DNA from: Bryobacteraceae bacterium
GTDB lineage: Bacteria; Acidobacteriota; Terriglobia; Bryobacterales; Bryobacteraceae
Reading direction: 5' to 3'
Length of the DNA: 36,649 nucleotides
Assembly: GCA_025980435.1 (NCBI GenBank)
Contig: JAICXK010000016.1
Span: 1-36,649, forward strand
Shown here: piece by piece, positions 19,163 through 35,011 of the stretch
Layout of the letters: the number at the start of each line of letters is the position of its first letter
Position numbering within the stretch: position 1 is the first letter of the stretch
The notes under the pieces: model-generated
Databases searched by the model: none
Told to the model about the DNA's origin: nothing
Seen by the model: the letters and a program-made list of their open reading frames with translations, nothing else
Position numbers and translations under genes: made by a program

Positions 19163-19208
19163 GGGCCGAGCAGGCGCTCGGCCCGCAGACGCGGCGGTCT
19201 GCCCCCAC
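19163..19208 (-). terminator. Tandem double hairpin and probable rho-independent terminator of the dihaem cytochrome gene
   Basis: Copy A of the double-hairpin family. GGGCCGAG (19163-19170) pairs with CTCGGCCC (19177-19184), and GCAGAC (19185-19190) with GTCTGC (19197-19202). The constant edge, GTGGGGGC in minus-strand sense, abuts the cytochrome TAG stop. On the minus strand the distal 8-base GC stem is followed by CTTCTTATTCT, a T-rich tract, so it can terminate transcription. Confidence 0.7.
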
Positions 19209-20573
19209 CTATAACGAGAGGACGTATTGCACAACATCGCGCTTCTCCTGCTCAGTCAAGCCGAGGCTCATGCAAGAGTTGTAATGGTCGACCACGTCGT
19301 GGAGGGTGCGGAACCGTCCATCGTGATAGAAGCCTCCCTTTTGATGGGTGAAGATGCCGGCCAGCGGCGAGGTGCGATAGCTGTGATCGGGCGCGCGATT
19401 GGCCTGGAAATCGTCAATGCAGATATCGGAGGGAGGATGCAGATTCCAGCCCGGCTCGGTCCAGAGCGGCTCGACGTGACAGTTATTGCATTTGGCTTTA
19501 CCGCTGAAGAGTTCGTCGCCGCGTTTGGCTGCCGCGGGGTCGAAGTCCCGTCCCGGTTTGGGGCGCGGTGCGGCGATGGCGAGCTGGTAAAACTGCAACG
19601 CCGGCAAGGTCTTGGTGATCAGGTCGTCATCAGGATTAATATGCGGCAGATCCCCGAACCCGTTGGCAGCAGCGATGGGGAATTGCATCGCATTGTTCAG
19701 GCGCGGATCGAAAAAACGCCCCTTGCCGTGCATCTCCAAATTGGCAACGAAAGCGTTCCAGTGCGGCACGGATCCCCATCCGGTCCAGGTGTGCAGATTG
19801 ACGCCCGCCAGGCCGAAGGCCGGCGGAATCAGCACTGCGGCAGATTTACCATCCGGACGGAAGCCCTTGCCATCCAGAAAGACCTCGGCATCAAACTTGC
19901 CGGGCCCCCAAGCGTTCAACACTTGCCGGAGGGTTGCGACATTGACGTCAAGCAGATCGGCAACGGGTTGGAGATTCGGGGCGAGTGAGACGATCGCGCC
20001 GACGTTGAGGTCGCGATTTGCCCAACCATCCAGCCGGCGGCCAATGCCAGGGGCTACGGAGTTATCCACTGTTGAGTGGCACAGGGCGCACTGGATTCCT
20101 ATTGATTTAAGCGTTCCCGAGGCGTTAAAGACGCCGGTCAAACCGACTACCGCATTGCTGCGAAGCAGGGCGAGGGTGATGGCCGGGTCGTTCGCGTCGG
20201 CCTGACTCAGGATCATCCGGTTCGCCCCCGGCGCCTCGTGCAGCATCATCCGACCTTTCAGCGCAGGCAGCAAGGCGTCGATATCGACCTTCAAGCCGAC
20301 GGAGAGGGCCTGGGCAGGAGTAAGGCCGGGGCCGACACCGCCGAATGCTTTGCCTTCGATGGCCTCGTGCAATTTCAGTGTGCCGCCCCAGAAGTCTTCG
20401 TCCCCGAACGTATCGAAGCGGAAGATCCGGCGGCCTTGATGAATCATCTTTTCCGCATTCGCAATTTGCGGATCTTCGGCCGCGAAGGCGCTTCGACGCA
20501 TGCTCAACTGAGAGACGCCGAGCGCGCCAACCGCGAGGAAGCCTGCAAGCGCAACGATCGATTTCCTGGACAT
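19209..20573 (-). CDS. Exported dihaem c-type cytochrome
   Basis: The protein is 454 residues from ATG 20573 (AAGGGG box; a GTG two codons upstream is less likely). A signal peptide spans about 1-32. There are two haem-binding CxxCH sites, C162-A-L-C-H and C-N-N-C-H near residue 361. The C-terminal segment 'TSPLAGIFTHQKGGFYHDGRF' followed by 'LHDVVDHYN' resembles the distal part of MauG/dihaem peroxidase-like and SoxA-like cytochromes. The unusual long N-terminal part precedes the first haem. A periplasmic electron-transfer or peroxidase-like role is inferred; there is no partner dehydrogenase beside it. The gene is followed by a good terminator hairpin. Confidence 0.85.
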   Translation of the reverse strand: MSRKSIVALAGFLAVGALGVSQLSMRRSAFAAEDPQIANAEKMIHQGRRIFRFDTFGDEDFWGGTLKLHEAIEGKAFGGVGPGLTPAQALSVGLKVDIDALLPALKGRMMLHEAPGANRMILSQADANDPAITLALLRSNAVVGLTGVFNASGTLKSIGIQCALCHSTVDNSVAPGIGRRLDGWANRDLNVGAIVSLAPNLQPVADLLDVNVATLRQVLNAWGPGKFDAEVFLDGKGFRPDGKSAAVLIPPAFGLAGVNLHTWTGWGSVPHWNAFVANLEMHGKGRFFDPRLNNAMQFPIAAANGFGDLPHINPDDDLITKTLPALQFYQLAIAAPRPKPGRDFDPAAAKRGDELFSGKAKCNNCHVEPLWTEPGWNLHPPSDICIDDFQANRAPDHSYRTSPLAGIFTHQKGGFYHDGRFRTLHDVVDHYNSCMSLGLTEQEKRDVVQYVLSL

Positions 20574-20748
20574 GTTCACCCCTTTCCCGAAGTGGCAATG
20601 ATGTCCTTATAGAGAGAGAACGGAAGCTAAGGTGACCGGTCTTGTGTTGCGGATTTGTAAAAGTTTATGCGAGGGTTGTTCACAACTCTTTTACATCGGG
20701 AACAGATACCGAGTGGCGCATCCGACTGCTCTAACGAGTAGGTCGCAT
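20574..20748. promoter_or_regulatory. Divergent intergenic region with inverted repeat
   Basis: This 175-base gap separates the minus-strand dihaem cytochrome and the plus-strand DUF5818-like gene and must contain both promoters. GTAAAAG (20657-20663) and CTTTTAC (20688-20694) are perfect 7-base inverted repeats 24 bases apart, with an inner GTTG...CAAC pair. This could be an operator or an RNA hairpin. I could not assign -35/-10 boxes with confidence. Confidence 0.35.
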
Positions 20749-21102
20749 ATGAAACAGATCGTATTGATTACCGCGCTGTTGGCGCTGACGTCGCCTGGAT
20801 TTGCTCAGAATAAGAGCGATACGTTCACCGGAGAGATTATGGATAAGCCGTGCGCCGAGATGGGCTCGCACGCGAATATGATGAAACAAGAAGGCGCAAA
20901 GGATGCCAAGGATTGCACCTTGAAATGCGTCAAGAGCGGCGCTCCCTTTGCTCTATTTGACCCAGCTACAAAGAAGGTGTATGTGATTGATGGTAAGGAC
21001 AAGGTTGAGCCATATGCCGGCCAGCATGTTCAGATTACGGGAACGTATGATGATAGTACTCAGCTTCTTCACGTGAAGAGCATCGCACCGAGCTCAAAGT
21101 AG
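20749..21102 (+). CDS. Small exported DUF5818-like protein
   Basis: The protein is 117 residues from ATG 20749. The longer open frame to 20632 lacks support; this ATG begins the signal peptide (1-21, 'QIVLITALLALTSPGFAQ'). The mature part reads 'FTGEIMDKPCAEM', then 'KDCTLKCVKSGAPFALFD', 'KVYVIDG' and 'AGQHVQITGTYD'. This order of Cys-containing segment, 'C-T-x-x-C-V-K-x-G' and 'G-x-x-V-x-x-T-G-T' matches small secreted acidobacterial proteins grouped as DUF5818. An OB-like beta barrel is likely. Function unknown. It lies between two cytochrome genes but is on the opposite strand. Confidence 0.75.
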   Translation: MKQIVLITALLALTSPGFAQNKSDTFTGEIMDKPCAEMGSHANMMKQEGAKDAKDCTLKCVKSGAPFALFDPATKKVYVIDGKDKVEPYAGQHVQITGTYDDSTQLLHVKSIAPSSK

Positions 21103-21126
21103 CGCGGAGATGATGGCCCACGCGGA

Positions 21127-22335
21127 TCAGTTCACTCTCCAGGCCGATACGTTCTTCCAGCTATCGAGTTGCTGTGTTGCCCAAGCGAGACTCTTGTCTT
21201 TGTGACAACTCGTACAGGGGTTCGGAATCTTGTAGGCGTCCGTCATCGCAGGGGAAATGAACCGAAAGGTGTGACTGCGCACATTTTGATCGGCGAGGGT
21301 TTGTTCGATCTTCGGCATATGGCACGCGATGCATTCGCCGCCGGGGCTGCCGGGCTTATGGTGTGTGTGCTCTTCGATCGTACTTGTGTGTGGTCCGTTC
21401 GGAGTGCCCGGGCCGTGGCATTCGAGGCACATCACGCTGGCCGGCTTAATGAGTAGCGCCTCATTCCCAGTGCCATGCACATCGTGGCAACTGAAGCACT
21501 TTATGCCGCGGGTGTACATCACGCTTTGGACGAAATCGTTGCCCTGCATGCGGTTCTTGTGCGCGGTGCCGTCGGGGAAATACATAAACGTGGATTCGCC
21601 AAGTTTGTGCTCTTCGAGTTTCCAGAAATCCTGCAGCTTCCCGCCCATGTGGAAGCCGACGGGCCAATCGTAGTACTTGCCCTCGATAGGGTTCTTCAGC
21701 GGCTGTCCCTGGGAATGGCACTGGATGCAGGTGTCGTTCGCCTGAACGAAATTGAGGCGGGCGGGATTGATAATGTTGGCGCGCGAAGGACGCGAAACGT
21801 GCAGGCTGCCTGGCCCGTGACAGCGCTCACAGCCGACGTTCCATTCGGTGACCGTCTTCGTTTTGATGTTGTAATTCACGGAATGGCAGCCATCGCAGAG
21901 CGGGCCAGTGGGGCGCTTGAAGTTGTCCGGCGGGTAGAGAGGAGCCCACCAATCGGTCCCATTCTTAACAAAATACGGCCGCCAGATCTGGTGTGCGATG
22001 TCCCATTGGGCGGGCAAGACAAAATAGTCGTCGCCAATTTTTTTGAAGTAGCGCTGCTTCCACCGGCTTCCGTACACAAGGGCGATATCGGCCCGAGTAA
22101 ACGTAACGAGCGGATTGGGCTTTGACAAATCCGGCAGAATCGCGTCCGGGTGAGTTTTGGGATCGCGAACGACGTTGGCCATGCGGGTCGTCTTCCAGCG
22201 ATCGTAGATTTGGGGATGACAGGTTCTGCAAGCCAGGGATCCAACGAAATGCGCAGTGGACGGGTTCGCGGGGGTTTGTGAAAATCCAACTGCACAGGTA
22301 AGGCATAACAGCGGAACAACTCTATTGAGGTCCAT
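21127..22335 (-). CDS. Exported octahaem c-type cytochrome (cytochrome c554-like family)
   Basis: The protein is 402 residues from ATG 22335 (GGGAG box 5 bases upstream), with a signal peptide at 1-19. Eight CxxCH motifs are visible in order: CRTCH, CDGCH, CERCH, CIQCH, CFSCH, CLECH, CIACH and CTSCH. 'YGSRWKQRYF', 'GTDWWAPLYPPDNFKRPTGPLCDG' region and 'GKYYDWPVGFHMGG' are long conserved stretches of a multihaem family common in acidobacteria and deltaproteobacteria. Multihaem c554-like proteins transfer electrons in the periplasm or reduce nitrogen or sulfur oxyanions. No quinone oxidase or reductase subunit is adjacent, so the partner is unknown. Confidence 0.88.
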   Translation of the reverse strand: MDLNRVVPLLCLTCAVGFSQTPANPSTAHFVGSLACRTCHPQIYDRWKTTRMANVVRDPKTHPDAILPDLSKPNPLVTFTRADIALVYGSRWKQRYFKKIGDDYFVLPAQWDIAHQIWRPYFVKNGTDWWAPLYPPDNFKRPTGPLCDGCHSVNYNIKTKTVTEWNVGCERCHGPGSLHVSRPSRANIINPARLNFVQANDTCIQCHSQGQPLKNPIEGKYYDWPVGFHMGGKLQDFWKLEEHKLGESTFMYFPDGTAHKNRMQGNDFVQSVMYTRGIKCFSCHDVHGTGNEALLIKPASVMCLECHGPGTPNGPHTSTIEEHTHHKPGSPGGECIACHMPKIEQTLADQNVRSHTFRFISPAMTDAYKIPNPCTSCHKDKSLAWATQQLDSWKNVSAWRVN

Positions 22336-22393
22336 ACGGGCTCCCAGAGCAGTGTACATGGGAATTCTGAAAGATGGCTGAAATGCGGGGAAT

Positions 22394-22437
22394 GCGGGCA
22401 CTGAACTGCCCGCCAGCACGATGAATCGTGCGCCACG
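22394..22437 (-). repeat. Tandem double hairpin, copy D
   Basis: GCGGGCA (22394-22400) pairs with TGCCCGC (22407-22413), and GCACGAT (22416-22422) with ATCGTGC (22425-22431). In minus-strand sense the element starts with C-GTGGCGC immediately after the TAA of the iron alcohol dehydrogenase and lies before the octahaem cytochrome start. There is no T-tract, so simple termination is less likely than for copy A. Confidence 0.65.
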
Positions 22438-23586
22438 TTACAACGATTGTTCGGCTACTTCGGCCAGTTCGTCTGGGGTGAGGGCAATTGGATTTGCCTT
22501 CGTGCTATTTGCGCGGCTGGTTTTCTCGACGAGTTCGGGGATCTGTTTCGCTTTGAAGCCGTACGCGCGGAGCGGCGGAATGGAAAGCCGCGAAACCAGG
22601 TCCACCAGCCAGGCGATGGCATCCTCCGCTTCGGCTTGTTGATGACCGGTCAGGATGCAGGCGATGTGGCGATACCGCTTGAGCGCTTCGTGATCGGGCG
22701 CGCGGCTGCGAAGAGCGCGAATATTGATGGCGACGCCGGCAGGAAGAACCGCGGCGCAGAGCGCGCCATGCGGGGCGTGGAGCATGCCTCCCAAAGGCGC
22801 GGCAAAACCATGGACCACGCCGAGCCCGGCATTGGCCAGAGCGAGACCGCTGAGCAGGCTGGCGTAAGACATCGATTCGCGAGCATCGCGGTTCCGACCA
22901 TCGTGAAAGGCGGCGGGAAGCGACGAGGCCACCCGCTGCATACCTTCGACACAGAAAAGATCCGTGATGGCGTTGGCGCGTATCGACACGTAGGGCTCAA
23001 TCAACTGAGTAAGAGCGTCAAGGCCGGTTGCGGCGGTGATGCGCGCCGGGAGGTCGAAGGTGAGCTCGGGATCGACGAGAGCAATTCTGGCGAACAGGAG
23101 GGGGCTGCGAAGGCTAGCCTTCACTCCGTGTTCTGGCGAGTCGAGAACGGCATTGCGGGTGACTTCGGCCCCGGTACCCGCCGTTGTGGGGACAGCAATC
23201 CAGGGCAGGGGAGAGTGCTGGAGCGGCTGGCCGCGCCCGATGACTTCCAAGTAATCGAGCGGTTCGCCGGAATTCGTTGCAAGCGCGGCGATCGCTTTGG
23301 CAGCATCCATCACGCTGCCGCCACCGATGCCGATGATCATTTCGCAGCCGCGCGCGGCGGCCGCACCTTCTCGCACTAAACTTACTGACGGCTCCTGGGG
23401 AACGCTGAAACTGGAGCAGGCGACGCCCGATTGTTCGAGGGCGGAAAGCAGCGGAGCGGTTCGTTCGGGATTAGCGCCAGTGATGACCAGCGCCCGGGTT
23501 CCGAATTCCTTCGCGAGCGCGTGAAGCTGCCGGCGCGCGCCGCAGCCGAAGAGAATGCGCGCCGCTGTTGCGAATTGGAATTGCAT
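22438..23586 (-). CDS. Iron-containing alcohol dehydrogenase (maleylacetate reductase-like group)
   Basis: The protein is 382 residues from ATG 23586 (AAGGTG box). The NAD-binding segment is 'IIGIGGGSVMDAAKAIAAL'. The metal-binding and substrate region includes 'VPTTAGTGAEVTRNAV' and the His-rich 'VVHGFAAPLGGMLHAPHGALCAAVLP'. It belongs to the Fe-ADH family, whose members reduce aldehydes, ketones or maleylacetate. The preceding gene, 16 bases away, is an ABM-domain protein, so the pair probably forms an operon. That would fit aromatic or quinone breakdown, but the substrate is not determined. Confidence 0.88.
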   Translation of the reverse strand: MQFQFATAARILFGCGARRQLHALAKEFGTRALVITGANPERTAPLLSALEQSGVACSSFSVPQEPSVSLVREGAAAARGCEMIIGIGGGSVMDAAKAIAALATNSGEPLDYLEVIGRGQPLQHSPLPWIAVPTTAGTGAEVTRNAVLDSPEHGVKASLRSPLLFARIALVDPELTFDLPARITAATGLDALTQLIEPYVSIRANAITDLFCVEGMQRVASSLPAAFHDGRNRDARESMSYASLLSGLALANAGLGVVHGFAAPLGGMLHAPHGALCAAVLPAGVAINIRALRSRAPDHEALKRYRHIACILTGHQQAEAEDAIAWLVDLVSRLSIPPLRAYGFKAKQIPELVEKTSRANSTKANPIALTPDELAEVAEQSL

Positions 23587-23602
23587 CGAACACACCTTGC
23601 GC

Positions 23603-23908
23603 TTACCAGGCAGTGTCACCGGGAAACACATTGCTGTATTTGACGCTCGAACGCGGTTCGGCCATCATACCGGCGACTTTGTCCCGCCAAGCCTTGTAAT
23701 GGGCCGTTTCCTTGTGAGCGGCGGGCGCGCCAGGAGTGCGGTACACCTCGACCAGAACGAAGCGGGACGGATCGTCGGAATGCTGAAGAACGTCGAACCG
23801 GGCGATACCGGGTTCCTGGACGCTCTTTTGAGCATTTTCGATGGTTGCGGCGCGAAACTCTTCGATATGCTCGGGGAGCACATGGATGTGAACATGAACG
23901 AGCAACAT
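23603..23908 (-). CDS. Antibiotic biosynthesis monooxygenase (ABM)-domain protein
   Basis: The protein is 101 residues from ATG 23908; the upstream open frame overlaps the next gene on the other strand and is not supported. The ferredoxin-like ABM fold is recognisable from '[16 protein letters not shown]', '[24 protein letters not shown]' and '[15 protein letters not shown]'. It is like LsrG, YgiN and other small cofactorless oxygenases or isomerases. It is the upstream member of a probable two-gene operon with the iron alcohol dehydrogenase. Function beyond the fold is inferred. Confidence 0.85.
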
Positions 23909-23963
23909 TGGTTCTATTGTGCTAAACGGGTCTCCATGATTTGCCCGTACGTATACTTCAGGT

Positions 23964-24371
23964 ATGGCATGCCCGTATTTCGAACCGCAACGAGCGGCGG
24001 CGGCGCAGCGGAACCGAGCGCGGCTGCCTCTCATTGAGGAACAGGAAGGCCTTTGCCGCGCGGGCGCGGAACCTGTAGAAGCGCCCCAACCAATGCGCTT
24101 CCGGTATTGCAACCAGGGGTACTCACGCGGAGCATGCGAGCACTTTCCGCCGCACGAGATTCGATCCGCATTGCGCTACGACTTCGTGGGCCGAACGGAA
24201 ACGGAACTCAAGGTCATGATTATTGAAGAACAAGATTACGCCCCGACCGAATGGCGCCTGGTCCGGTATTCGACCGGCAGCGAACGGCTGGAACCGGAAA
24301 TCGCCGAACCTTGCACGCGCGCACAGGTGGTAGCGTTCTGCCGGAGTTATGTCAGCCGTTTTTTTGCATGA
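23964..24371 (+). CDS. Hypothetical protein with Cys motif, coupled to thioesterase
   Basis: The protein is 135 residues. It contains a possible metal- or cluster-binding set of cysteines (C3, then C30, C49 and C58 in '[17 protein letters not shown]') and a beta-rich C-terminal half ('[22 protein letters not shown]'). There is no signal peptide. The ATGA overlap with the thioesterase gene indicates translational coupling. I recognise no established domain; a small zinc- or iron-sulfur-binding protein is possible from the Cys spacing. Confidence 0.7.
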
Positions 24372-24904
24372 ACATGGACTCGAACTCCCTGACGGTAGAA
24401 CAGGTGAAGGGCCGCGGCGCCACTCGCGCGGTCCGCGAAACGCAAGCGGAATATGCGGAGATTTGCCTCCCGAACGACGCGAACCTGCTTGGCAACATGC
24501 TCGGAGGGCACGTAATGCACCTGGTGGATCTTTGCGGCGCGATCGCGGCGATGCGGCACTCCCGCTGCACGGTCGTAACGGCGTCCGTGGATCAGATGAG
24601 CTTTCTGCACCCCGTTCGCATCGGGGAATTAGTGACGCTGAAGTCGCAGGTGAACCGGGTATTCCGTACCTCGATGGAAGTGGGCGTCAAGGTATGGGTC
24701 GAGAACCTGGTTACCGGTGAACGGCGGCACACCTCCTCCGCTTACCTGACGTTCGTGGCTCTAGACCGGGCGGGCAATCGCGTCGTGCTGGCTCCGGTAG
24801 CGCCGGAGACGGAAGAGGAAAAACGGCGATTCGCGGAAGCAGCCGAGCGAAGAGCATACAGGCTGGCATGCAAAGCCAAAACGAAGAGTAATCCGGATGA
24901 ATGA
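24368..24904 (+). CDS. Acyl-CoA thioesterase, hotdog fold (YciA/BFIT-like)
   Basis: The protein is 178 residues from ATG 24368, which overlaps the previous stop by 4 bases. The single hotdog domain includes 'CLPNDANLLGNMLGGHVMHLVD', where the conserved Asn and Gly/His precede the long central helix, then 'VTASVDQMSFLHPVRIGELV' and 'MEVGVKVWVENLVTGER'. It hydrolyses acyl-CoA to acid and CoA in the cytoplasm. The basic C-terminal tail (about 150-178) is typical. Substrate chain length is not readable. Confidence 0.92.
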   Translation: MNMDSNSLTVEQVKGRGATRAVRETQAEYAEICLPNDANLLGNMLGGHVMHLVDLCGAIAAMRHSRCTVVTASVDQMSFLHPVRIGELVTLKSQVNRVFRTSMEVGVKVWVENLVTGERRHTSSAYLTFVALDRAGNRVVLAPVAPETEEEKRRFAEAAERRAYRLACKAKTKSNPDE

Positions 24905-24934
24905 AGCCGTTCCGGCGCTATTCCGGTTCGGCTT
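24904..24934. terminator. Hairpin at the convergent thioesterase/hfq ends
   Basis: AAGCCG (24904-24909) pairs with CGGCTT (24929-24934), extended by CCGG/CCGG across a TT/TT internal loop. It spans the thioesterase stop and the last codons of hfq. The plus strand continues TTGTACATGTATTT. It may limit read-through between the convergent genes. Confidence 0.35.
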
Positions 24935-25220
24935 TGTACATGTATTTAATGCAATGTTTGAAGAGCAGCAGATTGGGCGCGCCGGTGCGATTCAGCTTCA
25001 GACAATCGCGGTCGTACCATTCGATTACGCCTTCCAGTTGTTCGCCGTCGTTTAAGGCGATGACCATGTGGGTTTTCCCCTGCATCTGCTTGGAATAGTA
25101 GAACTGCTCGGCGTTGGTCTGATCCGGCGGGGTGCTTTTTTTGCCGCTCGCGCTGGGCGGCCGACGAATGGCTTCCTTGTTTTCCGTACTACGAATTGGT
25201 TTCCTGATGAGCGATTCCAA
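24918..25220 (-). CDS. hfq: RNA chaperone Hfq, acidobacterial type with N-terminal extension
   Basis: The protein is 100 residues. The Sm core begins at about residue 36 with 'NAEQFYYSKQMQGKTHMVIA'. Sm1 is 'LNDGEQLEGVIEWYDRDCLKLN' region, and Sm2 ends 'LLLFKHCIKYMYK', keeping the KH pair found in Hfq. The first 35 residues are a basic, probably disordered extension. The start is TTG 25220, with a strong GAGGAG box 6-8 bases upstream; no ATG precedes the core. Hfq pairs small RNAs with mRNAs. The 'WYDR' variant differs from the enterobacterial Sm1, so RNA-face preferences may differ. The upstream 79 bases hold a CGATAG/CTATCG hairpin (25258-25280) and an AT-rich stretch, a possible promoter. 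Confidence 0.85.
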   Translation of the reverse strand: MESLIRKPIRSTENKEAIRRPPSASGKKSTPPDQTNAEQFYYSKQMQGKTHMVIALNDGEQLEGVIEWYDRDCLKLNRTGAPNLLLFKHCIKYMYKAEPE

Positions 25221-25299
25221 ACGCCTCTCCTCTTGTTTCCGCTATATGTAAATTACCCGATAGTGCTGAGTTTGCTATCGCGGCGCCCGCAATGTTCAA

Positions 25300-26349
25300 T
25301 TAGGTGCGGGCCAAAATCGGACGGTTACGCAATTTAATAATCATAGCGTCGAGCGCTGCTAATTTCTGTATATTCCTTCGTACCATAAGCACAAGCTCGT
25401 CTACAGAATGGACGGCGCGCTCTGCCCAGCGATAGTCCACGCGCGCCGAAAGTGCTTCTATTCTCTGCCGGATATCCCGATTATTTTCGGGCGGCCGGCC
25501 ATACAGCGCATGCAGAACATCTTCAAGGATGCCATACGCCAACTTCAAGTACAAATCCAATTTTTCGGATTTTCGCGATGCAAACGATTCCGAGTGCTGT
25601 ACCCAGACGGGCCACTGGGTCAGGCCTCCAGCGCACTCGAAAGCGGCCAGGAGAAGCGCCCGGCGCTCGCGAAACTGGTCGAGGTCAAGGGTGGCGGCGA
25701 TGCCCGGGCTGCCTCCGGACAGCGCGATGCGGGTCTCCGCTTCGGGAATTTTACGCGCCGAGGCGAATTGAAGCATTTCCTGATCGGTGAGCCGGCCCAA
25801 CTCCAGAACGATGGCGCGGGAGCGGATGGTGGGCAAAAGATCGTACAGGTTTTCGGCGGTAGCGAAGATGATGAGATGCTCGGGGGGCTCTTCAAGTACC
25901 TTGAGGAGCGAATTGGCGGCCTGTTCATTCGCGCGATCGAGATGATCAATCAGGAAGACGCGGTATTTGCCGCTAAGAGGCTTAAACTGGGCGCGTTCGC
26001 GGAGAAGCCGCATTTGCTGGATACTGATCTGGCGGAGCGGGCCGTCCGGCGCGAAGGTGACAAAATCCGGGTGAGTGTTGAACAGCAACGGATCGTCAGC
26101 GCGTTTTTCGGCGGGCCATTTTTCGCGCTGCTCGATCAAATCGAGGTTTGCCGCGAGACTCAAGTCATCCTGTTCAATTTTGGACGGGCTGCCAAGGAGT
26201 GCGGCGGCAAAGCGGCGAACGAGCGTCGCCTTGCCGATGCCTTGCGGACCGCTGACGAGGACCGTTTGCGGTATGCGGCCGGCCTGGAGCGCCTGGGCCA
26301 GTGTCGCGGCTGCCTGTGAATTACCGAAGAAATCCGGGAAGGGGCCCAT
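25300..26349 (-). CDS. holB: DNA polymerase III subunit delta' (clamp loader)
   Basis: The protein is 349 residues from ATG 26349. The AAA+ domain carries the P-loop-like 'VSGPQGIGKATLVRRFA' and the Walker-B-like 'YRVFLIDHLDRANEQAANSLLKVLEEPPEH' region, with 'IRSRAIVLEL' as the sensor-like SRC region. The cysteines that bind zinc in many delta' and gamma subunits are absent. The subunit helps load the sliding clamp at replication forks. The gene follows tmk by 16 bases, the common tmk-holB order. The longer frame to 26592 overlaps tmk and is not used. Confidence 0.9.
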   Translation of the reverse strand: MGPFPDFFGNSQAAATLAQALQAGRIPQTVLVSGPQGIGKATLVRRFAAALLGSPSKIEQDDLSLAANLDLIEQREKWPAEKRADDPLLFNTHPDFVTFAPDGPLRQISIQQMRLLRERAQFKPLSGKYRVFLIDHLDRANEQAANSLLKVLEEPPEHLIIFATAENLYDLLPTIRSRAIVLELGRLTDQEMLQFASARKIPEAETRIALSGGSPGIAATLDLDQFRERRALLLAAFECAGGLTQWPVWVQHSESFASRKSEKLDLYLKLAYGILEDVLHALYGRPPENNRDIRQRIEALSARVDYRWAERAVHSVDELVLMVRRNIQKLAALDAMIIKLRNRPILART

Positions 26350-26365
26350 CCGTACTTCTATTGTC

Positions 26366-27031
26366 TCAATGCGACGCTGAGGGCAGCCGGGGAGAAACGA
26401 GGGACCAGACGCGCTGCGCAACATCGCCGGGTTCGCCGCTTCCATCAATGATGCGAAAGCGCCCGGGATGGAGGCTCGCGATCCGGCGGTATCCAGCGTC
26501 CACGCGGCGATGGAAATCCAAGGATTGCCGGTCGATGCGCGATTCACCTGCTCCCGACGGGTTGCTCTGATTGCGGGCGTGGGCGCGAGCAAGGGCCGCT
26601 TCCACGTCGAGTGAGACGCAAAGCGTCAGGTCAGGCGCCAGAGAGCCCAGGGCAAGATGCTGAGCGGCAAAGACCAGGTCGAACCCGAGGCCGCGGGCCT
26701 CTCCCTGATAAGCCAGGGTGGAATCTGTAAAGCGGTCGGACACGACGATTTCGCCGCGCTGGAGGGCGGGGGCGATGATTTCGACGGCGGCCTGCGCACG
26801 AGAAGCGAACATCAGGAGCAGTTCCGTCATGGGCGCCATTTCCTGATGCGCGGGATCGAGGAGAATGCGGCGGATCTGCGCGCCGATGGCAGTTCCGCCC
26901 GGCTCCTGATTTTCGGCGACGGTATAGCCGCTGTCGCGCAACCGAGACACCAGGAGGCGCATTTGGGTGCTCTTGCCGCTGCCCTCGGTGCCTTCAAGGC
27001 TGATGAACAGGCCGGGAGGGTGAGGCATCAT
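26366..27031 (-). CDS. tmk: Thymidylate kinase
   Basis: The protein is 221 residues. It has P-loop 'GTEGSGKSTQM' (14-24), the DRY/DRF motif 'VVSDRFTDSTLAYQG' that binds dTMP, and a lid region with 'GAGESRIDRQ'. It phosphorylates dTMP to dTDP. ATG 27031 gives 'MMPHPPGLFISLEG'; ATG 27028 is one codon later. It lies upstream of holB in the same direction. The gap to the uracil-DNA glycosylase gene holds double-hairpin copy C. Confidence 0.95.
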   Translation of the reverse strand: MMPHPPGLFISLEGTEGSGKSTQMRLLVSRLRDSGYTVAENQEPGGTAIGAQIRRILLDPAHQEMAPMTELLLMFASRAQAAVEIIAPALQRGEIVVSDRFTDSTLAYQGEARGLGFDLVFAAQHLALGSLAPDLTLCVSLDVEAALARAHARNQSNPSGAGESRIDRQSLDFHRRVDAGYRRIASLHPGRFRIIDGSGEPGDVAQRVWSLVSPRLPSASH

Positions 27032-27035
27032 GCCA

Positions 27036-27075
27036 GCGGCCTGTGAGGCCGCCGCAGGCCGAGGGCCTGCCCCAC
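27036..27075 (-). repeat. Tandem double hairpin, copy C
   Basis: GCGGCC (27036-27041) pairs with GGCCGC (27047-27052), and GCAGGCC (27054-27060) with GGCCTGC (27064-27070), followed on the plus strand by CCCAC. In minus-strand sense it starts GTGGGGC, 8 bases after the uracil-DNA glycosylase stop, and ends 4 bases before the tmk ATG. No T-tract follows, so it may act as an RNA-stability or processing element inside the operon. Confidence 0.6.
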
Positions 27076-27082
27076 AAGAGGA

Positions 27083-27772
27083 TTAATCATAGACGAAATG
27101 GAGGAGCACTTTGAGATCTTCCCAGGCTTCGCGCTTGGCCTGCTGGTTGTATTGGCGCAAGAGATAGGAGGGATGATAGGTGATCATCACGGGGATGCCG
27201 CGCCATTTGTGCCACTTGCCGCGCAATTTGGTGATGCCCTCTTTCGGATTGAGAAGCGCCTTCATGGCCGTGGAGCCGAGTACGCAAATCGCCTTCGGTT
27301 GGACGGCCAGGATTTGACGGAATAGAAACTGACCGCAGATTTCCATTTCATCGGGAAGGGGAGTGCGGTTGTCCGGCGGTCTGCACTTGACGACATTGCA
27401 GATGTAGACATCGCCGCGGCGGATGGGGATGCCCTCTTTCGAAGCGGTATTTTCGATCATCTGCGTGAGCAGTTGCCCGGCGCGCCCGACAAATGGCAGG
27501 CCCTGTTCATCCTCGTCCGCGCCCGGACCTTCGCCAACGAAAACAAGCGGCGCGCGCTCGTTACCGGAGCCGAACACGATCTTCTGACGCCCTTCGCTGA
27601 GGCGGCAGCGCTTGCAATCGCCCAGGTCCAGTCGAATCTGATCGAGTGTCTCGTTGGCGGGCGCCAGGGGCGGCAGGGCGATCTCAGGCTGAACTGCCGT
27701 GTGTTTGTAAATGGAATCTATACCCAAATCGCGATAGAACTCGAGGTAGCTGTGAATCTGTTCTTTTTTCAT
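27083..27772 (-). CDS. Uracil-DNA glycosylase, family 4 (iron-sulfur)
   Basis: The protein is 229 residues. Motif 'FVGEGPGADEDEQGLPFVGRAG' region and 'MITYHPSYLLR' are the family-4/5 active-site segments. Four cysteines that can hold a 4Fe-4S cluster are present: the pair in 'DLGDCKRCRLSEGRQ', then 'CNVVKCRPP' and 'AICVLG' region. It removes uracil from DNA. Its stop precedes tmk, and its start overlaps coaBC by 4 bases (ATGA). N-terminal residues 1-40 ('QIHSYLEFYRDLGIDSIY') are an extra segment common in acidobacterial and delta forms. Confidence 0.92.
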   Translation of the reverse strand: MKKEQIHSYLEFYRDLGIDSIYKHTAVQPEIALPPLAPANETLDQIRLDLGDCKRCRLSEGRQKIVFGSGNERAPLVFVGEGPGADEDEQGLPFVGRAGQLLTQMIENTASKEGIPIRRGDVYICNVVKCRPPDNRTPLPDEMEICGQFLFRQILAVQPKAICVLGSTAMKALLNPKEGITKLRGKWHKWRGIPVMITYHPSYLLRQYNQQAKREAWEDLKVLLHFVYD

Positions 27773-28980
27773 GTCGCGTGAAGCGAAAGCCGCAACGTCG
27801 CGACCTGATCGAGAATGCGTTCGGCGATGGTTTCCTTCTCCGCGGGGCCGGCGTGAACGACGTGGCCCGAATGGCTAATGATATCGACTTCATTCCGATC
27901 GGATTCAAAGCCCAAGCCATCGCGATTGACAAGATTGGCTACCAACATGTCGCACTTTTTGGCCTTCATTTTGCGGCGAGCTTCTTCGAGGAGGTTTTCG
28001 GTCTCGGCGGCAAAACCGATCAACAGACGATCGCCCTTCCGCTGGCCGACCTCGGCGAGGATATCGGGAGTGGGATCAAGCTCGAGCGAAAGGCGAGCGG
28101 CGGTCTTCTTCAACTTCTGCTGGGGCGCGTTGGCCAGATAGTAATCCGCCACGGCCGCAGCCTTAATCACGATCGAGGCGTCCTGAAGCTGCTCCAAGAC
28201 AGCAGCGCGCATTTCCTGGGCGGTGCGAACCGAGATCCTCTCTACATTAGCGGGGGGCGGCAAATTGACCGGACCCGAGATTAGGACCACGCGCGCGCCA
28301 CGGCGGGCAGCGGCTTCGGCGAGCGCATAACCCATTTTGCCGCTGGACCGGTTGCTGATGTAGCGAACGGGATCGAGCGATTCCTGGGTCGGTCCGGCAG
28401 TGATCAGGAGCGTCTCGCCCTCGAAATCGCGTTTGCGCCGCTCCAGGGAATCCACCCGATCGGCAATGCGTACGGGGTCGGGCAGGCGGCCCGCCCCGAT
28501 AGTTCCACAAGCGAGCCAGCCCTCGTCGGGATCGACGATGGAACAACCGCGGCCGCGAAGCACGTCGAGATTCGACTGCGTGGCGGGGTGTTCCCACATG
28601 GCGGTATTCATTGCGGGGGCAAGGACAACCCGTCCGGTGAAGGCGAGATAGAGCGTGGTCAGAAAATCGTCCGCCAATCCTTGGGCAAATTTAGCCAGCA
28701 GATCGGCGGTAGCGGGGGCGACGATGAGAACGTCGTTCTCCTGCGCGACGGCAATGTGTTCGACAGCGCTCGAAAGGATGTCTTGCGAATCCGGCGCAGC
28801 CCACAAACTCGTAACTACTTTGCGCCCCGTCAGTGCGGCAAAGGTGAGGGGCTGAATGAATTCCTGGGCCGCACGGGTCATGACGACCTGAACATCGTGG
28901 CCGCGCTGCTGGAGCGCGCGCACAAGCTCGGCTGCTTTGTATGCGGCGATCCCGCCGCCCACTCCCAGAACGGCGCGCAT
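27769..28980 (-). CDS. coaBC: Bifunctional phosphopantothenoylcysteine decarboxylase / phosphopantothenate-cysteine ligase
   Basis: The protein is 403 residues. The N-terminal flavin-dependent decarboxylase (CoaC, 1-185) has 'GVGGGIAAYKAAELVRAL', the catalytic-His region 'AVEHIAVAQENDVLIVAPA', 'PAMNTAMWEHPAT' and the active-site Cys in 'GWLACGTIGAGRLPD'. The C-terminal ligase (CoaB) has 'ITAGPTQESLDPVRYISNRS' and 'SSGKMGYALAEAAARRGA', then 'IKAAAVADY' and a Lys-rich 'QQKLKKTAA'. Together they make 4'-phosphopantetheine for coenzyme A. The gene lies just after rpoZ, a common bacterial order. Confidence 0.96.
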   Translation of the reverse strand: MRAVLGVGGGIAAYKAAELVRALQQRGHDVQVVMTRAAQEFIQPLTFAALTGRKVVTSLWAAPDSQDILSSAVEHIAVAQENDVLIVAPATADLLAKFAQGLADDFLTTLYLAFTGRVVLAPAMNTAMWEHPATQSNLDVLRGRGCSIVDPDEGWLACGTIGAGRLPDPVRIADRVDSLERRKRDFEGETLLITAGPTQESLDPVRYISNRSSGKMGYALAEAAARRGARVVLISGPVNLPPPANVERISVRTAQEMRAAVLEQLQDASIVIKAAAVADYYLANAPQQKLKKTAARLSLELDPTPDILAEVGQRKGDRLLIGFAAETENLLEEARRKMKAKKCDMLVANLVNRDGLGFESDRNEVDIISHSGHVVHAGPAEKETIAERILDQVATLRLSLHAT

Positions 28981-28986
28981 GAAAAA

Positions 28987-29223
28987 CTATTCGGCTAGCG
29001 CCTGCTCTTCTTCCTGGACCGGATCGGCGTAGGGGACGAGGCCGCGCCTGACCTCCTCCATCGCTAAAACAGTTGGTTTGCGATTGGTTGCGGGAAGCAC
29101 GCTGCGCTGTCCGTTCTGTAACTGGCGCGCTCGCTTCGCCGAAACGATGATGAAGCGATAGGTGCTGGCATCGCCGTCGTCGGGGATGCTGTACATTGCA
29201 TTTGTTCTTGGTCTGTGTGCCAT
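28987..29223 (-). CDS. rpoZ: RNA polymerase omega subunit
   Basis: The protein is 78 residues, with 'YRFIIVSAKRARQLQNGQR' and 'KPTVLAMEEVRRGLV' matching the conserved core of omega, which binds the beta' C-terminus and assists polymerase assembly. The acidic tail 'DPVQEEEQALAE' is usual. It lies between gmk and coaBC, the standard gmk-rpoZ-coaBC order. ATG 29223 is used. Confidence 0.93.
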   Translation of the reverse strand: MAHRPRTNAMYSIPDDGDASTYRFIIVSAKRARQLQNGQRSVLPATNRKPTVLAMEEVRRGLVPYADPVQEEEQALAE

Positions 29224-29263
29224 GTCTACTCCAATGCGGGCCGGTTGCGGCGCGCGGTATTGC

Positions 29264-29890
29264 TTAAATCAAAGATGATGACCGGACCTCAAAGCTCTTG
29301 AGGATAGGCCGGATCTGCTGCTCCATACGGATCCTGCGGACCCGCTCGGCTTTTATGACAGCCGCCAGCGTCGTAGTGGATTCTTCCACCTGGTGGTTTA
29401 CCAGAACATAGTCATACTGCTGGTAATTTCGAATCTCTTCAGCGGCTTCATGCAGGCGGCGCTGAATCACGTCTTCGGAATCCTCCGATCGCACGCGCAG
29501 CCGCTGTTCCAGGATGTCGCGGGACGGAGGCAGGATGAAAATCGTGACCGCCTCTGGAATCCGTTCCTTTAATTGTCTCGCACCCTGCACGTCAATGTCG
29601 AGAATGAGGTCCTTGCCCTCCGACTGCGCCTGTTCGAGCACTTCCCGGTTGGTTCCGTAGAAGTTGCCGAAGACCTCGGCATGCTCCAGAAATTCGCCCT
29701 GGGCGACCCGGGATATGAATTCCGGGCGCGAAATATAGACGTAATTTTCACCAGGTTTCTCTGTTCCGCGCGGTTTTCGCGTTGTATAAGAGACCGAGAA
29801 GCGCAATCCCGGATCAACACCCATCAGACGCGCAACGAGCGTCGATTTGCCGGAGCCGGAGGGGGCCGAAATAATAAAGACTGTGGTCAT
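29264..29890 (-). CDS. gmk: Guanylate kinase
   Basis: The protein is 208 residues from ATG 29890, giving 'MTTVFIISAPSGSGKSTLVA' with the P-loop at 8-17. GMP-binding residues are in 'SVSYTTRKPRGTEKPGENYVY', and 'DIDVQGARQL' is the Walker-B-like segment. It converts GMP to GDP. A longer frame from TTG 29950 overlaps the yicC stop by 8 bases and would add 20 residues with no family match; neither start has a strong ribosome binding site. Confidence 0.94.
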   Translation of the reverse strand: MTTVFIISAPSGSGKSTLVARLMGVDPGLRFSVSYTTRKPRGTEKPGENYVYISRPEFISRVAQGEFLEHAEVFGNFYGTNREVLEQAQSEGKDLILDIDVQGARQLKERIPEAVTIFILPPSRDILEQRLRVRSEDSEDVIQRRLHEAAEEIRNYQQYDYVLVNHQVEESTTTLAAVIKAERVRRIRMEQQIRPILKSFEVRSSSLI

Positions 29891-29942
29891 GCGTTGGGGG
29901 CCGCGGACGCCGTCGAGCCGCCGGGCCTCTTGTAAAGAGTAG

Positions 29943-30851
29943 TTACTCAAGGTTCAGGGCTTGCTCTCGTATTCTTTCGATATTAGCCTTCAGGCCGAGG
30001 GCGAGATTGGTGATCCGCAGGCCGGGTTCACCGGCGCCGGAACTTTTCGACAGCGCGGTATTGGCTTCACGATTCATTTCCTGCAGCAAGAAATCGAGGC
30101 GCTTGCCAACTTCGCCACCTTCAGCAAGCATTCGCCCTAGCTCGGCTGTATGAACCGACAAACGCGTCAACTCTTCTTCGATATCGGACCTGTCACCGAG
30201 CAGAGCGGCTTCCTCAATTATGCGCGTTTCCGGAATGCCTGAGCCGCTGAGGATCTCTGTCATTCGCTCGCGCAGGCGGGCCCGCCAATGCGGCAAAGCG
30301 CTGGCACGAATAGAGCGGATCTCGTGAATGGCGTTCTGAATCAGGCCTACTTCGCGCTGTAATTCCACTCGCAAAGCATTGCCTTCGCGCTCGCGGTGAG
30401 AATTCAACTCAGCGGCGCAGGCGGAAATCGTCTCCAGCAGTTCCGGTTGAATCGCCTGGTTCAGGCAGCCGGATCCATTGACAGCTTCGAACACGCCGGG
30501 AAGCGTGAAGAGCGCGTTGAGATCCGGCTCGCACTTCAGTTGGAAATCTTCACAGACCTGGCGGAAGGCAGCCAGGTAGCGATCGAGGGCGGCGCGATTG
30601 TAAGCAGCGGCGGAATGCTCCGGAGGCGCCAGAGAGACGCGAACCTCCACGTGTCCCCGCCGGATGCACTCTTTCAGCCGCGCCCGCATGGCATTTTCGA
30701 AGAGCGCGAATTCGCCGATCTGATAGAAGTGCAGGTCGAGCCCGCGATGATTCACGCTACGCAGACTGATGGTCAATTCACCGGCACCGGTCGCACGGCG
30801 GACGCTGGCAAATCCGGTCATGCTGCGAACCGGGGCGGGGAGAGTACTCAT
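29943..30851 (-). CDS. yicC: YicC-family endoribonuclease-like protein
   Basis: The protein is 302 residues. 'VRSMTGFASVRR' at the N-terminus and 'RSVNHRGLDLHFY' are the YicC-N signature, and 'EEAALLGDRSDIEEELTRLSVH' is the C-terminal DUF1732 core. YicC proteins are RNases linked to small-RNA turnover; that activity is known for the E. coli relative and is assumed here. It lies upstream of gmk in the usual yicC-gmk-rpoZ order. ATG 30851 is used; ATG 30821 ('MTGF') is an alternative. Confidence 0.93.
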   Translation of the reverse strand: MSTLPAPVRSMTGFASVRRATGAGELTISLRSVNHRGLDLHFYQIGEFALFENAMRARLKECIRRGHVEVRVSLAPPEHSAAAYNRAALDRYLAAFRQVCEDFQLKCEPDLNALFTLPGVFEAVNGSGCLNQAIQPELLETISACAAELNSHREREGNALRVELQREVGLIQNAIHEIRSIRASALPHWRARLRERMTEILSGSGIPETRIIEEAALLGDRSDIEEELTRLSVHTAELGRMLAEGGEVGKRLDFLLQEMNREANTALSKSSGAGEPGLRITNLALGLKANIERIREQALNLE

Positions 30852-30874
30852 GCGGGTGGCTCCGATTGAGGAAA

Positions 30875-30920
30875 GCCGGACGAGGGCGTCCGGCTGCGGA
30901 CCAAGGGGTCCGCCCCACCT
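30875..30920 (-). repeat. Tandem double hairpin, copy B
   Basis: GCCGGAC (30875-30881) pairs with GTCCGGC (30888-30894), and GCGGACC (30896-30902) with GGTCCGC (30907-30913), followed by CCCACCT. In minus-strand sense it starts AGGTGGGGC, 31 bases after the msbA-like stop, and lies before yicC. Both stems are perfect 7-base pairs and differ from the other copies in sequence. Confidence 0.65.
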
Positions 30921-34567: not shown

Positions 34568-34618
34568 AGCTAGCTTGATTATCTCTTGCTGGTGAATCAG
34601 GCTGCGGATTAGAAAAAG

Positions 34619-35011
34619 GCCTGCGCGGTTTGTAAGCCGGTTTCTGTTCCCGCTACGTTTTGCAACACAGCAGGCGGCAACCATTCGTCTAGGCCGCCCA
34701 TTGCTGGGAGGCTCAAGCGACCTACCCGGAAGTCGTAACGGAGCGGGCCGCTCCTGCTCCCCTATTTGGTCTTGCTTCGCATGGGGTTTTCCCTGCCAGC
34801 CCGATTACTCGGGCCGCGGTGCGCTCTTACCGCACCATTTCACCCTTACCCGCCGGAGACCGGCAGGCGGTATATTTTCTGTGGCACTGTCCGTAATCTG
34901 CGTTTCCGCAAATCCCCGGCCGTTAGCCGGCATGCTGCCCTGAGAAGACCGGACTTTCCTCCCGGTTCACTCGCGAACGAATGAACCCGGTGGCTGCCCA
35001 ACCGCGCAGGC
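34619..35011 (-). ncRNA. rnpB: RNase P RNA (bacterial class A)
   Basis: The conserved core GAGGAAAGTCCGG (minus strand, near 34955-34967) and the 3' end ACAGAAACCGGCTTACA (34631-34647) are both present. The terminal stem P1 pairs GCCTGCGCGGTT (5' end at 35011) with AACCGCGCAGGC (3' end at 34619). The core GGTAAGGGTGAAA and GGTAAGAGCGCACC segments lie between. Length is about 393 bases. The transcript is followed by CTTTTTCT, a terminator-like T-run. The RNA is the catalytic part of RNase P, which trims tRNA 5' ends. It is divergent from mtaB, with only 40 bases between them. Confidence 0.95.

Follow-up and report, generated by a model that had tools for sequence, protein, structure and literature searches.

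The window analysed here, a stretch of 36,649 nucleotides from a Bryobacteraceae bacterium (Acidobacteriota; assembly GCA_025980435.1, contig JAICXK010000016.1, positions 1 to 36,649), carries on its minus strand four copies of a short element, E1 to E4, in which a GTGG(G/C) foot is followed by a 6–7 bp hairpin closed by GC, a spacer of 0–2 bases and a second hairpin of 7–9 bp. With a probability of about 0.92, we identify E1–E4 as non-autonomous mobile repeats of the REP (repetitive extragenic palindrome) type that belong to RAYTs (REP-associated tyrosine transposases, or TnpA-REP, of the HUH fold) encoded elsewhere in the genome. Elements of this plan are associated with RAYT genes, their type follows the RAYT tree, they are dispersed through the genome and absent from corresponding junctions in relatives, their stems covary, and the tips of their two hairpins are coupled. 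An earlier note, drawn up from the letters of the window, had described four minus-strand copies with one plan, which the structure of E1–E4 confirms, and had suspected a REP-like dispersed mobile hairpin repeat, which is now supported by RAYT genes, further copies and covariation; it missed that there are several RAYT-specific subfamilies and that the tips are common to both hairpins.

The perfectly paired, sequence-variable hairpins that lie after genes in these acidobacteria are explained in this way as mobile DNA and not as conserved regulatory RNA. The elements also bear on how a RAYT selects its own repeats and why REP families within one genome stay apart: tens of RAYTs with diverged tips, each with two hairpins that serve as a built-in replicate, amount to a natural experiment on this problem.

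RAYT Genes and Their Elements

The source assembly (5.14 Mb in 416 contigs) contains nine Y1_Tnp genes, seven of which have double-hairpin elements close by. Six RAYTs (L026, L027, L028, L029, L031 and L032) are flanked by elements on either side, often with the downstream element overlapping the 3′ end of its own RAYT gene, and L033 has two elements, both upstream; the search for a REP-associated transposase that the earlier note had recommended is thus positive. L029, L032 and L033 look broken, with an incomplete profile match or an inner stop, and L030 is a two-piece Y1 remnant without elements. L025 (C187:14902-15225) is a Y1 transposase of a different type, with MARLARVVAVGVAHHITQRG in its frame and one weak, unconvincing candidate element.

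The RAYTs carry the motifs HUH (NHVH), FWQ/WQ and YIExNP (YIxxNP), and the NCBIfam family REP_Tyr_transpos is matched by five scanned RAYTs, two above and three below the curated cut-off. A RAYT profile matches the Escherichia coli REP–RAYT structure 4er8 by sequence (E 3e-7), and 4er8 is also the best fold match (E 4.4e-8) of the predicted RAYT fold (predicted local distance difference test score, pLDDT, 88.5). The nearest named transposase matches come from metagenome-assembled genomes of Bryobacterales, Solibacter and Sulfopaludibacter.

The association extends to these relatives, from which 80 RAYT loci out of 461 confirmed candidates were taken. Among the 71 with 200 bases on each side, 23 have elements on both sides, 17 on one and 31 on none, and the 80 loci together hold 92 elements compared with 2 in reversed sequence. 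Adding 70 further loci of relatives and the seven of this genome gave 157 loci and, after removal of L032, whose frame is interrupted by a stop, and of further rows that were short or nearly identical, 123 non-redundant RAYTs. Elements stand on both sides of 36 and on one side of 29 of the 114 RAYTs with room on both sides, and the enlarged set yields 134 elements compared with 3 in reversed sequence. They are mostly inverted around the RAYT with their feet outward (50 upstream on the plus and 54 downstream on the minus strand, against 18 upstream on the minus and 12 downstream on the plus strand). Elements are nearly confined to one RAYT clade (SH-like approximate likelihood ratio test, SH-aLRT, 88), being found at 61 of 76 RAYTs inside it compared with 4 of 47 outside. 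Behind the RAYT of locus L095, at about 2063-2458, six elements of two kinds follow one another in alternating orientation and with regular spacing, in the manner of a BIME (bacterial interspersed mosaic element).

A survey of 81 genomes of the family used cut-offs of E<=1e-20 for RAYTs and E<=1e-4 for elements, and its counts saturate at 79 scored candidates. Elements were present in 33 of the 36 genomes that have a RAYT, compared with 15 of the 45 in which none was detected (Fisher 6e-8, Spearman 0.68). In a sample of 149 genomes of the phylum, which as listed held no other member of the family, six genomes gave a match with 43 candidates scored per genome and only this one gave more than two; we treat the one or two weak matches in each of the other five as noise.

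Dispersal Across the Genome

Further copies were recovered across the genome both by a covariance model and by a direct scan, in agreement with the dispersal that the earlier note had supposed. The scan for a foot plus two hairpins (score >=12) found 17 elements in 458,867 bases from 40 other contig stretches of this genome, compared with 1 in reversed sequence and a mean of 3.4 with five other feet. Four of the 17 adjoin RAYT genes (L186, L193), and at least L178 seems to have matched by chance; extrapolation from 17 in 459 kb gives roughly 190 copies per genome.

MAFFT alignments of all copies were rejected because they shifted the stems, and the first model, R1, was for that reason started from four copies, which include E4 and not E1. 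Scoring 150 of 4221 candidates, R1 gives at least 73 matches in the genome at E<=10, and 52 of these have an E below 0.001. It recovers E4 (1.8e-8) and E1 (0.0055) in the whole genome and E3 (0.0018) in a 149-kb search. A second model, R2, was built from matches that include E1, E3 and E4, so its matches on E3 and E4 are no independent evidence. E2 is not among the listed matches of either model, both of which cover the GTGGC type poorly.

The copies are thus numerous and mostly intergenic, with 28 of 33 copies in this genome lying outside called genes. Identical 44-bp cores are found on different contigs, 6 of 8 of one type within a larger repeat. Target site preference amounts to a weak T bias, with T at 36–58% of each of the first five 3′ bases in 50 copies. 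Several elements are found no more than about 100 bases from the end of a contig, both in this genome and in genome G080 (for example on C6, C42, C124, C189 and C227); the repeats seem to break assemblies, so copy numbers and RAYT counts may be underestimates.

A separate 168-bp repeat is present in this genome at C116:1729-1896, C193:9437-9604 and C56:125-292 (L039, L040 and L048), with further single ends on C4, C82, C230, C343, C349 and C385. It has 20-bp terminal inverted repeats, two double-hairpin elements face to face and 9-bp target duplications, one of which reads as 10, and several of its insertion sites resemble, by eye, the hairpin 1 tip of another double-hairpin element. Judged by eye, it is a REP-targeting, REP-carrying MITE (miniature inverted-repeat transposable element); no long autonomous parent was found among 12 end matches, the ends on C343 and C385 not having been followed.

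Stem Covariation and RAYT-Specific Subfamilies

The stems vary in sequence while their pairing is kept, as the earlier note had concluded from the four window copies. In a pairing test unbiased by the outcome, sites were chosen by the foot and the outer 4 bp, and the inner 3 bp were then scored. Of the 68 such sites at the 80 RAYT loci retrieved by their protein, 59 are fully complementary there, where shuffled partners would give 11.7, and 13 different inner triplets occur among the 59. The same holds for 13 of 14 sites of this genome fetched without structure model or pattern (shuffled, 3.7). Both sets were chosen without regard to pairing, and the covariation of stem differences is therefore upheld in a larger set. 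Loci fetched with the structure model are a biased sample (26 of 26 complementary), and the total for this genome that includes them, 33 of 34, is weaker evidence. In 63 model matches 98.6% of cells are paired, 13 of 15 pairs have changed on both sides and 248 cells show changes on both sides, compared with 61 when shuffled and at most 26 when slid; selection and alignment of these matches lean towards structure.

Covarying stems would also be expected if the elements were a family of structured regulatory RNAs, either attenuators or akin to riboswitches. We consider this extremely improbable for E1–E4: a scan of the window against Rfam gives nothing at the gathering score except RNase P, the genes next to the elements are varied, and the same junctions in relatives lack the element. 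The Rfam match itself is a bacterial class A RNase P RNA at 34617-35009 on the minus strand.

Element type follows the RAYT tree. Across 45 RAYTs, a set that leaves out L119 and L125 with their irregular stems, RAYT tree distance correlates with element distance (Mantel r 0.49, 0/5000 permutations). Very long-stemmed elements were left out of one comparison of the RAYT tree with element type. The foot GTGGC is almost exclusive to one RAYT clade. By feet, stems and tips, compared by eye, E1 and E4 resemble the elements of L031, E3 those of L028, and E2 those of L026 and of the GTGGC clade. About three RAYT/REP subfamilies thus seem to be represented in the window. The four stems would then differ because they belong to about three subfamilies and because only pairing, foot and tip seem to be constrained.

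Elements E1–E4 and Their Junctions

The four window elements are 40–46 bases long and are described here in minus-strand sense. E1 (19163..19208), delimited by its structure and a check of open reading frames (ORFs), is of the gccg/gcct tip type and consists of GTGGGG, a foot with an extra G, then GCAGAC..GTCTGC with a single mismatch at the tip of hairpin 1, and GGGCCGAGC gcct GCTCGGCCC; it starts directly behind a TAG stop. E2 (22394..22436), of the GTGGC type, reads GTGGC, GCACGA ttca TCGTGC, TG and GCGGGCA..TGCCCGC, with ttca tips in both hairpins and a single mismatch at the tip of hairpin 2; its foot stands 1 base 3′ of the TAA stop of an iron alcohol dehydrogenase (Pfam). E3 (27036..27075) is made up of GTGGG, GCAGGCC ctc GGCCTGC, G and GCGGCCT cac AGGCCGC, its foot 7 bases 3′ of the stop of a uracil-DNA glycosylase-like gene and with thymidylate kinase directly after (Pfam). 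E4 (30875..30918) has the foot GTGGG, the hairpin GCGGACC cctt GGTCCGC, a single A and then GCCGGACG ccct CGTCCGGC; its foot is 33 bases 3′ of an ABC transporter gene stop and yicC follows directly (Pfam). The placement of all copies just after minus-strand stops therefore stands as first noted, the distances being 0, 1, 7 and 33 bases instead of the 0–31 given at the time. A perfect-stem scan of the window gave two further weak matches inside ORFs, at 12793 (+) and 23324 (-), which were dismissed.

This placement is what double-hairpin transcription terminators or stabilizers of mRNA 3′ ends, kept for their function at each gene, would show. By a home-made gene caller, 23 of the 28 copies of this genome outside called genes follow the 3′ end of one or more genes, none was seen between two divergent gene starts (six have a single called neighbour), and 17 compared with 7 have the same orientation as the gene on their 5′ side. 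E1 alone of the window copies has a clear T-rich tail, in line with the single T-tract of the earlier note, and E4 has TTT; the U-tract of an intrinsic terminator is accordingly present in one of the four.

Conservation at the junctions speaks against such a role. The yicC (E4), thymidylate kinase (E3) and alcohol dehydrogenase (E2) junctions were compared in relatives, and no element is found before yicC in 29 loci (24 junctions displayed, with the transporter end mostly visible just before yicC; a single chance-level match lies elsewhere in locus L162) or at thymidylate kinase in 13 (six junctions displayed). From these absences, copies come and go; these elements are therefore recent arrivals or have been lost elsewhere, and are not conserved parts of the adjoining genes. 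A conserved regulatory role there, which the earlier note had kept as a possibility, is unsupported. E3 and E4, moreover, lie between close codirectional genes, copies flank RAYTs, mostly as inverted pairs, and a terminator provides no rationale for the GTGG foot or for the coupling of tips. A position after gene ends is itself typical of REPs in the part of PMC3733652 used here. We therefore regard terminators or stabilizers as a very unlikely account of E1–E4, and an RNA-level side effect of mobile elements, for example on transcript ends, as possible.

Coupling of the Two Hairpin Tips

The two hairpins of an element tend to share the first base of the loop. In the window this base is c in both hairpins of E4 and of E3, t in both of E2 and g in both of E1, allowing one tip mismatch in E1 and E2. 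Among 61 RAYT-linked elements, one per RAYT, it is equal in 50 (C-C 21, T-T 20, G-G 9), compared with 31% after free shuffling and 56% after shuffling within clades that were set by hand from the tree (0/5000 each). The second loop base is coupled as well (82% versus 51% and 74% in the same two nulls), the top two stem pairs are coupled mainly between clades, and basal stem positions 2–4 are uncoupled, at the null level. The rule holds within this one genome, where the first loop base agrees in 82% of 38 distinct copies (null 39%) and in 18 of 22 copies fetched without the model (null 37%, 0/5000). The two tips also remain correlated once RAYT distance is accounted for (partial Mantel r 0.44, 0/5000).

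The closing base pair was considered as the coupled unit and set aside: it is coupled globally and weakly within clades (136/5000, 420/5000, 245/3000). In 17 GTGGG/GCGG copies of this genome the closing pair is uncoupled (972/3000), loop identity is weak (98/3000) and the first loop base is clear (12/3000).

Matching tips suggest that both hairpins are read by the same pocket, and hence by two subunits or in turn. They could instead stem from plain tandem duplication of one REP hairpin, the tips matching by descent or gene conversion with no dual recognition, an account that competes with recognition of two hairpins and leaves the assignment to REP/RAYT untouched. It would explain why the tips are alike and why both hairpins start with G-rich, GC-closed stems. 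Basal positions 2–4 of the two hairpins, however, are no more alike than chance, and the first loop base has changed at least 12 times on the tree in hairpin 1 and at least 10 times in hairpin 2, yet agrees in 50 of 61 elements. Gene conversion is unlikely to have been confined to a few bases at the tip, and a second hairpin comes next in 17 of 18 strict hairpin-1 units, compared with 806 of 4000 random positions by the same lenient test. Duplication without dual recognition is on this evidence rather unlikely.

RAYT Residues Tracking the Tip

Within clades, loop base 1 is tracked by RAYT residues 111, 115 and 122 (114, 118 and 125 in the folded L031 RAYT), all within the predicted helix 108–127 of the RAYT model, where they would lie roughly on one face. 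Residue 82 (85 in the folded protein) also tracks this base and residue 147 (150) scores like the helix residues; both lie outside the helix. For hairpin 1 of the 61 elements, family-wise p is 0.036 for residue 82 and 0.10–0.18 for the helix residues; for the 50 agreeing elements it is 0.041 for residue 82 and 0.054 for residue 115. The best columns reach 0.036–0.07 family-wise in this analysis and 0.018–0.07 in another analysis of alignment columns, where column 41, outside the helix, scores as high as the helix residues. The column profile leaves out four element-bearing RAYT rows outside the main clade. The loop base thus covaries with residues of the presumed DNA-binding helix at borderline significance.

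We tentatively propose, at somewhat less than even odds, that one RAYT dimer on a single element reads both hairpins with one pocket, and that tip base and pocket change together to yield orthogonal pairs, that is, a recognition code. The pocket would comprise the helix after the HUH strand, with residues 114, 118 and 125, and residue 85 of the folded L031 RAYT; in such a code, residue 118 would be small or aliphatic, with His at 85, where the loop base is C, and often aromatic where it is G or T. The tip rule itself points to one base and one protein helix.

Points Against and Proposed Mechanism

Several observations weigh against these interpretations. No such element accompanies 49 of the 114 RAYTs with room for one; many of these RAYTs are not members of the main clade and may work with a different repeat. 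The 15 family genomes with elements and no detected RAYT form a second point, for which we offer the explanation that the RAYT was lost, is unassembled or falls below the cut-off. The RAYT of L085 belongs to the L031-like clade, and the element downstream of it is of a type seen in another clade (GCAGCCA atcc / GCCGCCT ttc); elements may therefore recombine or insert next to a RAYT that is not their own. The tip rule has exceptions: in 9 of the 61 elements the first loop base is A in the first hairpin and T in the second, and another two disagree as well; independent pairs on well-supported branches number 2–3 per base and are concordant or neutral, so a strict phylogenetic test lacks power. 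Finally, absence at the E2 gene in relatives amounts to 8 of 8 scanned loci, with synteny unchecked and L217-L219 unscanned.

The REP/RAYT assignment suggests the following sequence of events. When single-stranded, as in replication or transcription, the element would fold; a RAYT, probably as two subunits, would bind both hairpins at the tip, reading the first loop base of each one, and would then cut next to the foot and join the strand elsewhere. The resulting insertions would survive mostly just after gene ends.

Comparison With Known Systems

The comparison draws on portions of PMC8266576, PMC6006769 and PMC3733652. E1–E4 and their relatives share with the REP/RAYT systems described there (REPtrons, and the group 3 REPs, whose short hairpins are perfect) a GT(G/A)G foot on the 5′ side of a perfectly paired hairpin, an HUH/Y1 transposase with the NHVH, FWQ and YIExNP motifs, dispersed elements that also flank the transposase gene, and a tendency for each transposase to have its own repeat type (PMC8266576, PMC6006769). 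Known REPs, as covered in these portions, are single hairpins, either short or long with a bulge and some with feet at both ends, or pairs of such units, unlike the single foot followed by two tandem hairpins with a common tip seen here (PMC8266576, PMC6006769). The double-hairpin unit thus departs from the single hairpin of a canonical REP and is filed as a REP/RAYT variant.

The importance of the first loop base has precedents. In the Stenotrophomonas system, SELEX (systematic evolution of ligands by exponential enrichment) and mutation show that G13, the first base of the loop, is essential, and in Marinomonas T12, T13 and A15 are enriched or essential. If T12 pairs with A15, as the authors suggest, the loop there begins with T13; they propose that a helix equivalent to the DNA-binding helix of E. 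coli reads such bases (PMC8266576, as far as used here). In the literature searched, which largely excluded subscription journals, neither the tip rule nor a relevant paper describing RAYT-linked double hairpins was found, and the tip match between the two hairpins of one element seems to be new.

TIRtrons, with their TIRYT transposases, are alike in that inverted repeats flank the transposase and some of the terminal inverted repeats (TIRs) are double palindromes; an acidobacterial TIRYT group includes Koribacter versatilis, one of whose TIRs is repeated (PMC3733652, in the portion drawn on). There the second stem-loop in Pseudomonas is described as "unrelated", and most TIRs are said to have no relation to REPs. 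Compared by description, our elements differ in their plain GTGG/GTAG foot and in a second hairpin that carries the tip of the first (PMC3733652). Some of the published acidobacterial TIRs may nonetheless be the same double-hairpin element (PMC3733652).

The ends of the IS200/IS605 insertion sequences (IS608, ISDra2) are a further parallel, with a transposase of the same TnpA fold. In that family a dimer uses two hairpins per reaction. Tip bases are contacted there as well, according to the part of PMC8266576 used here. The hairpins of IS200/IS605 stand at the two ends of the insertion sequence, unlike those described here, which both lie within a single element of 40–47 nt.

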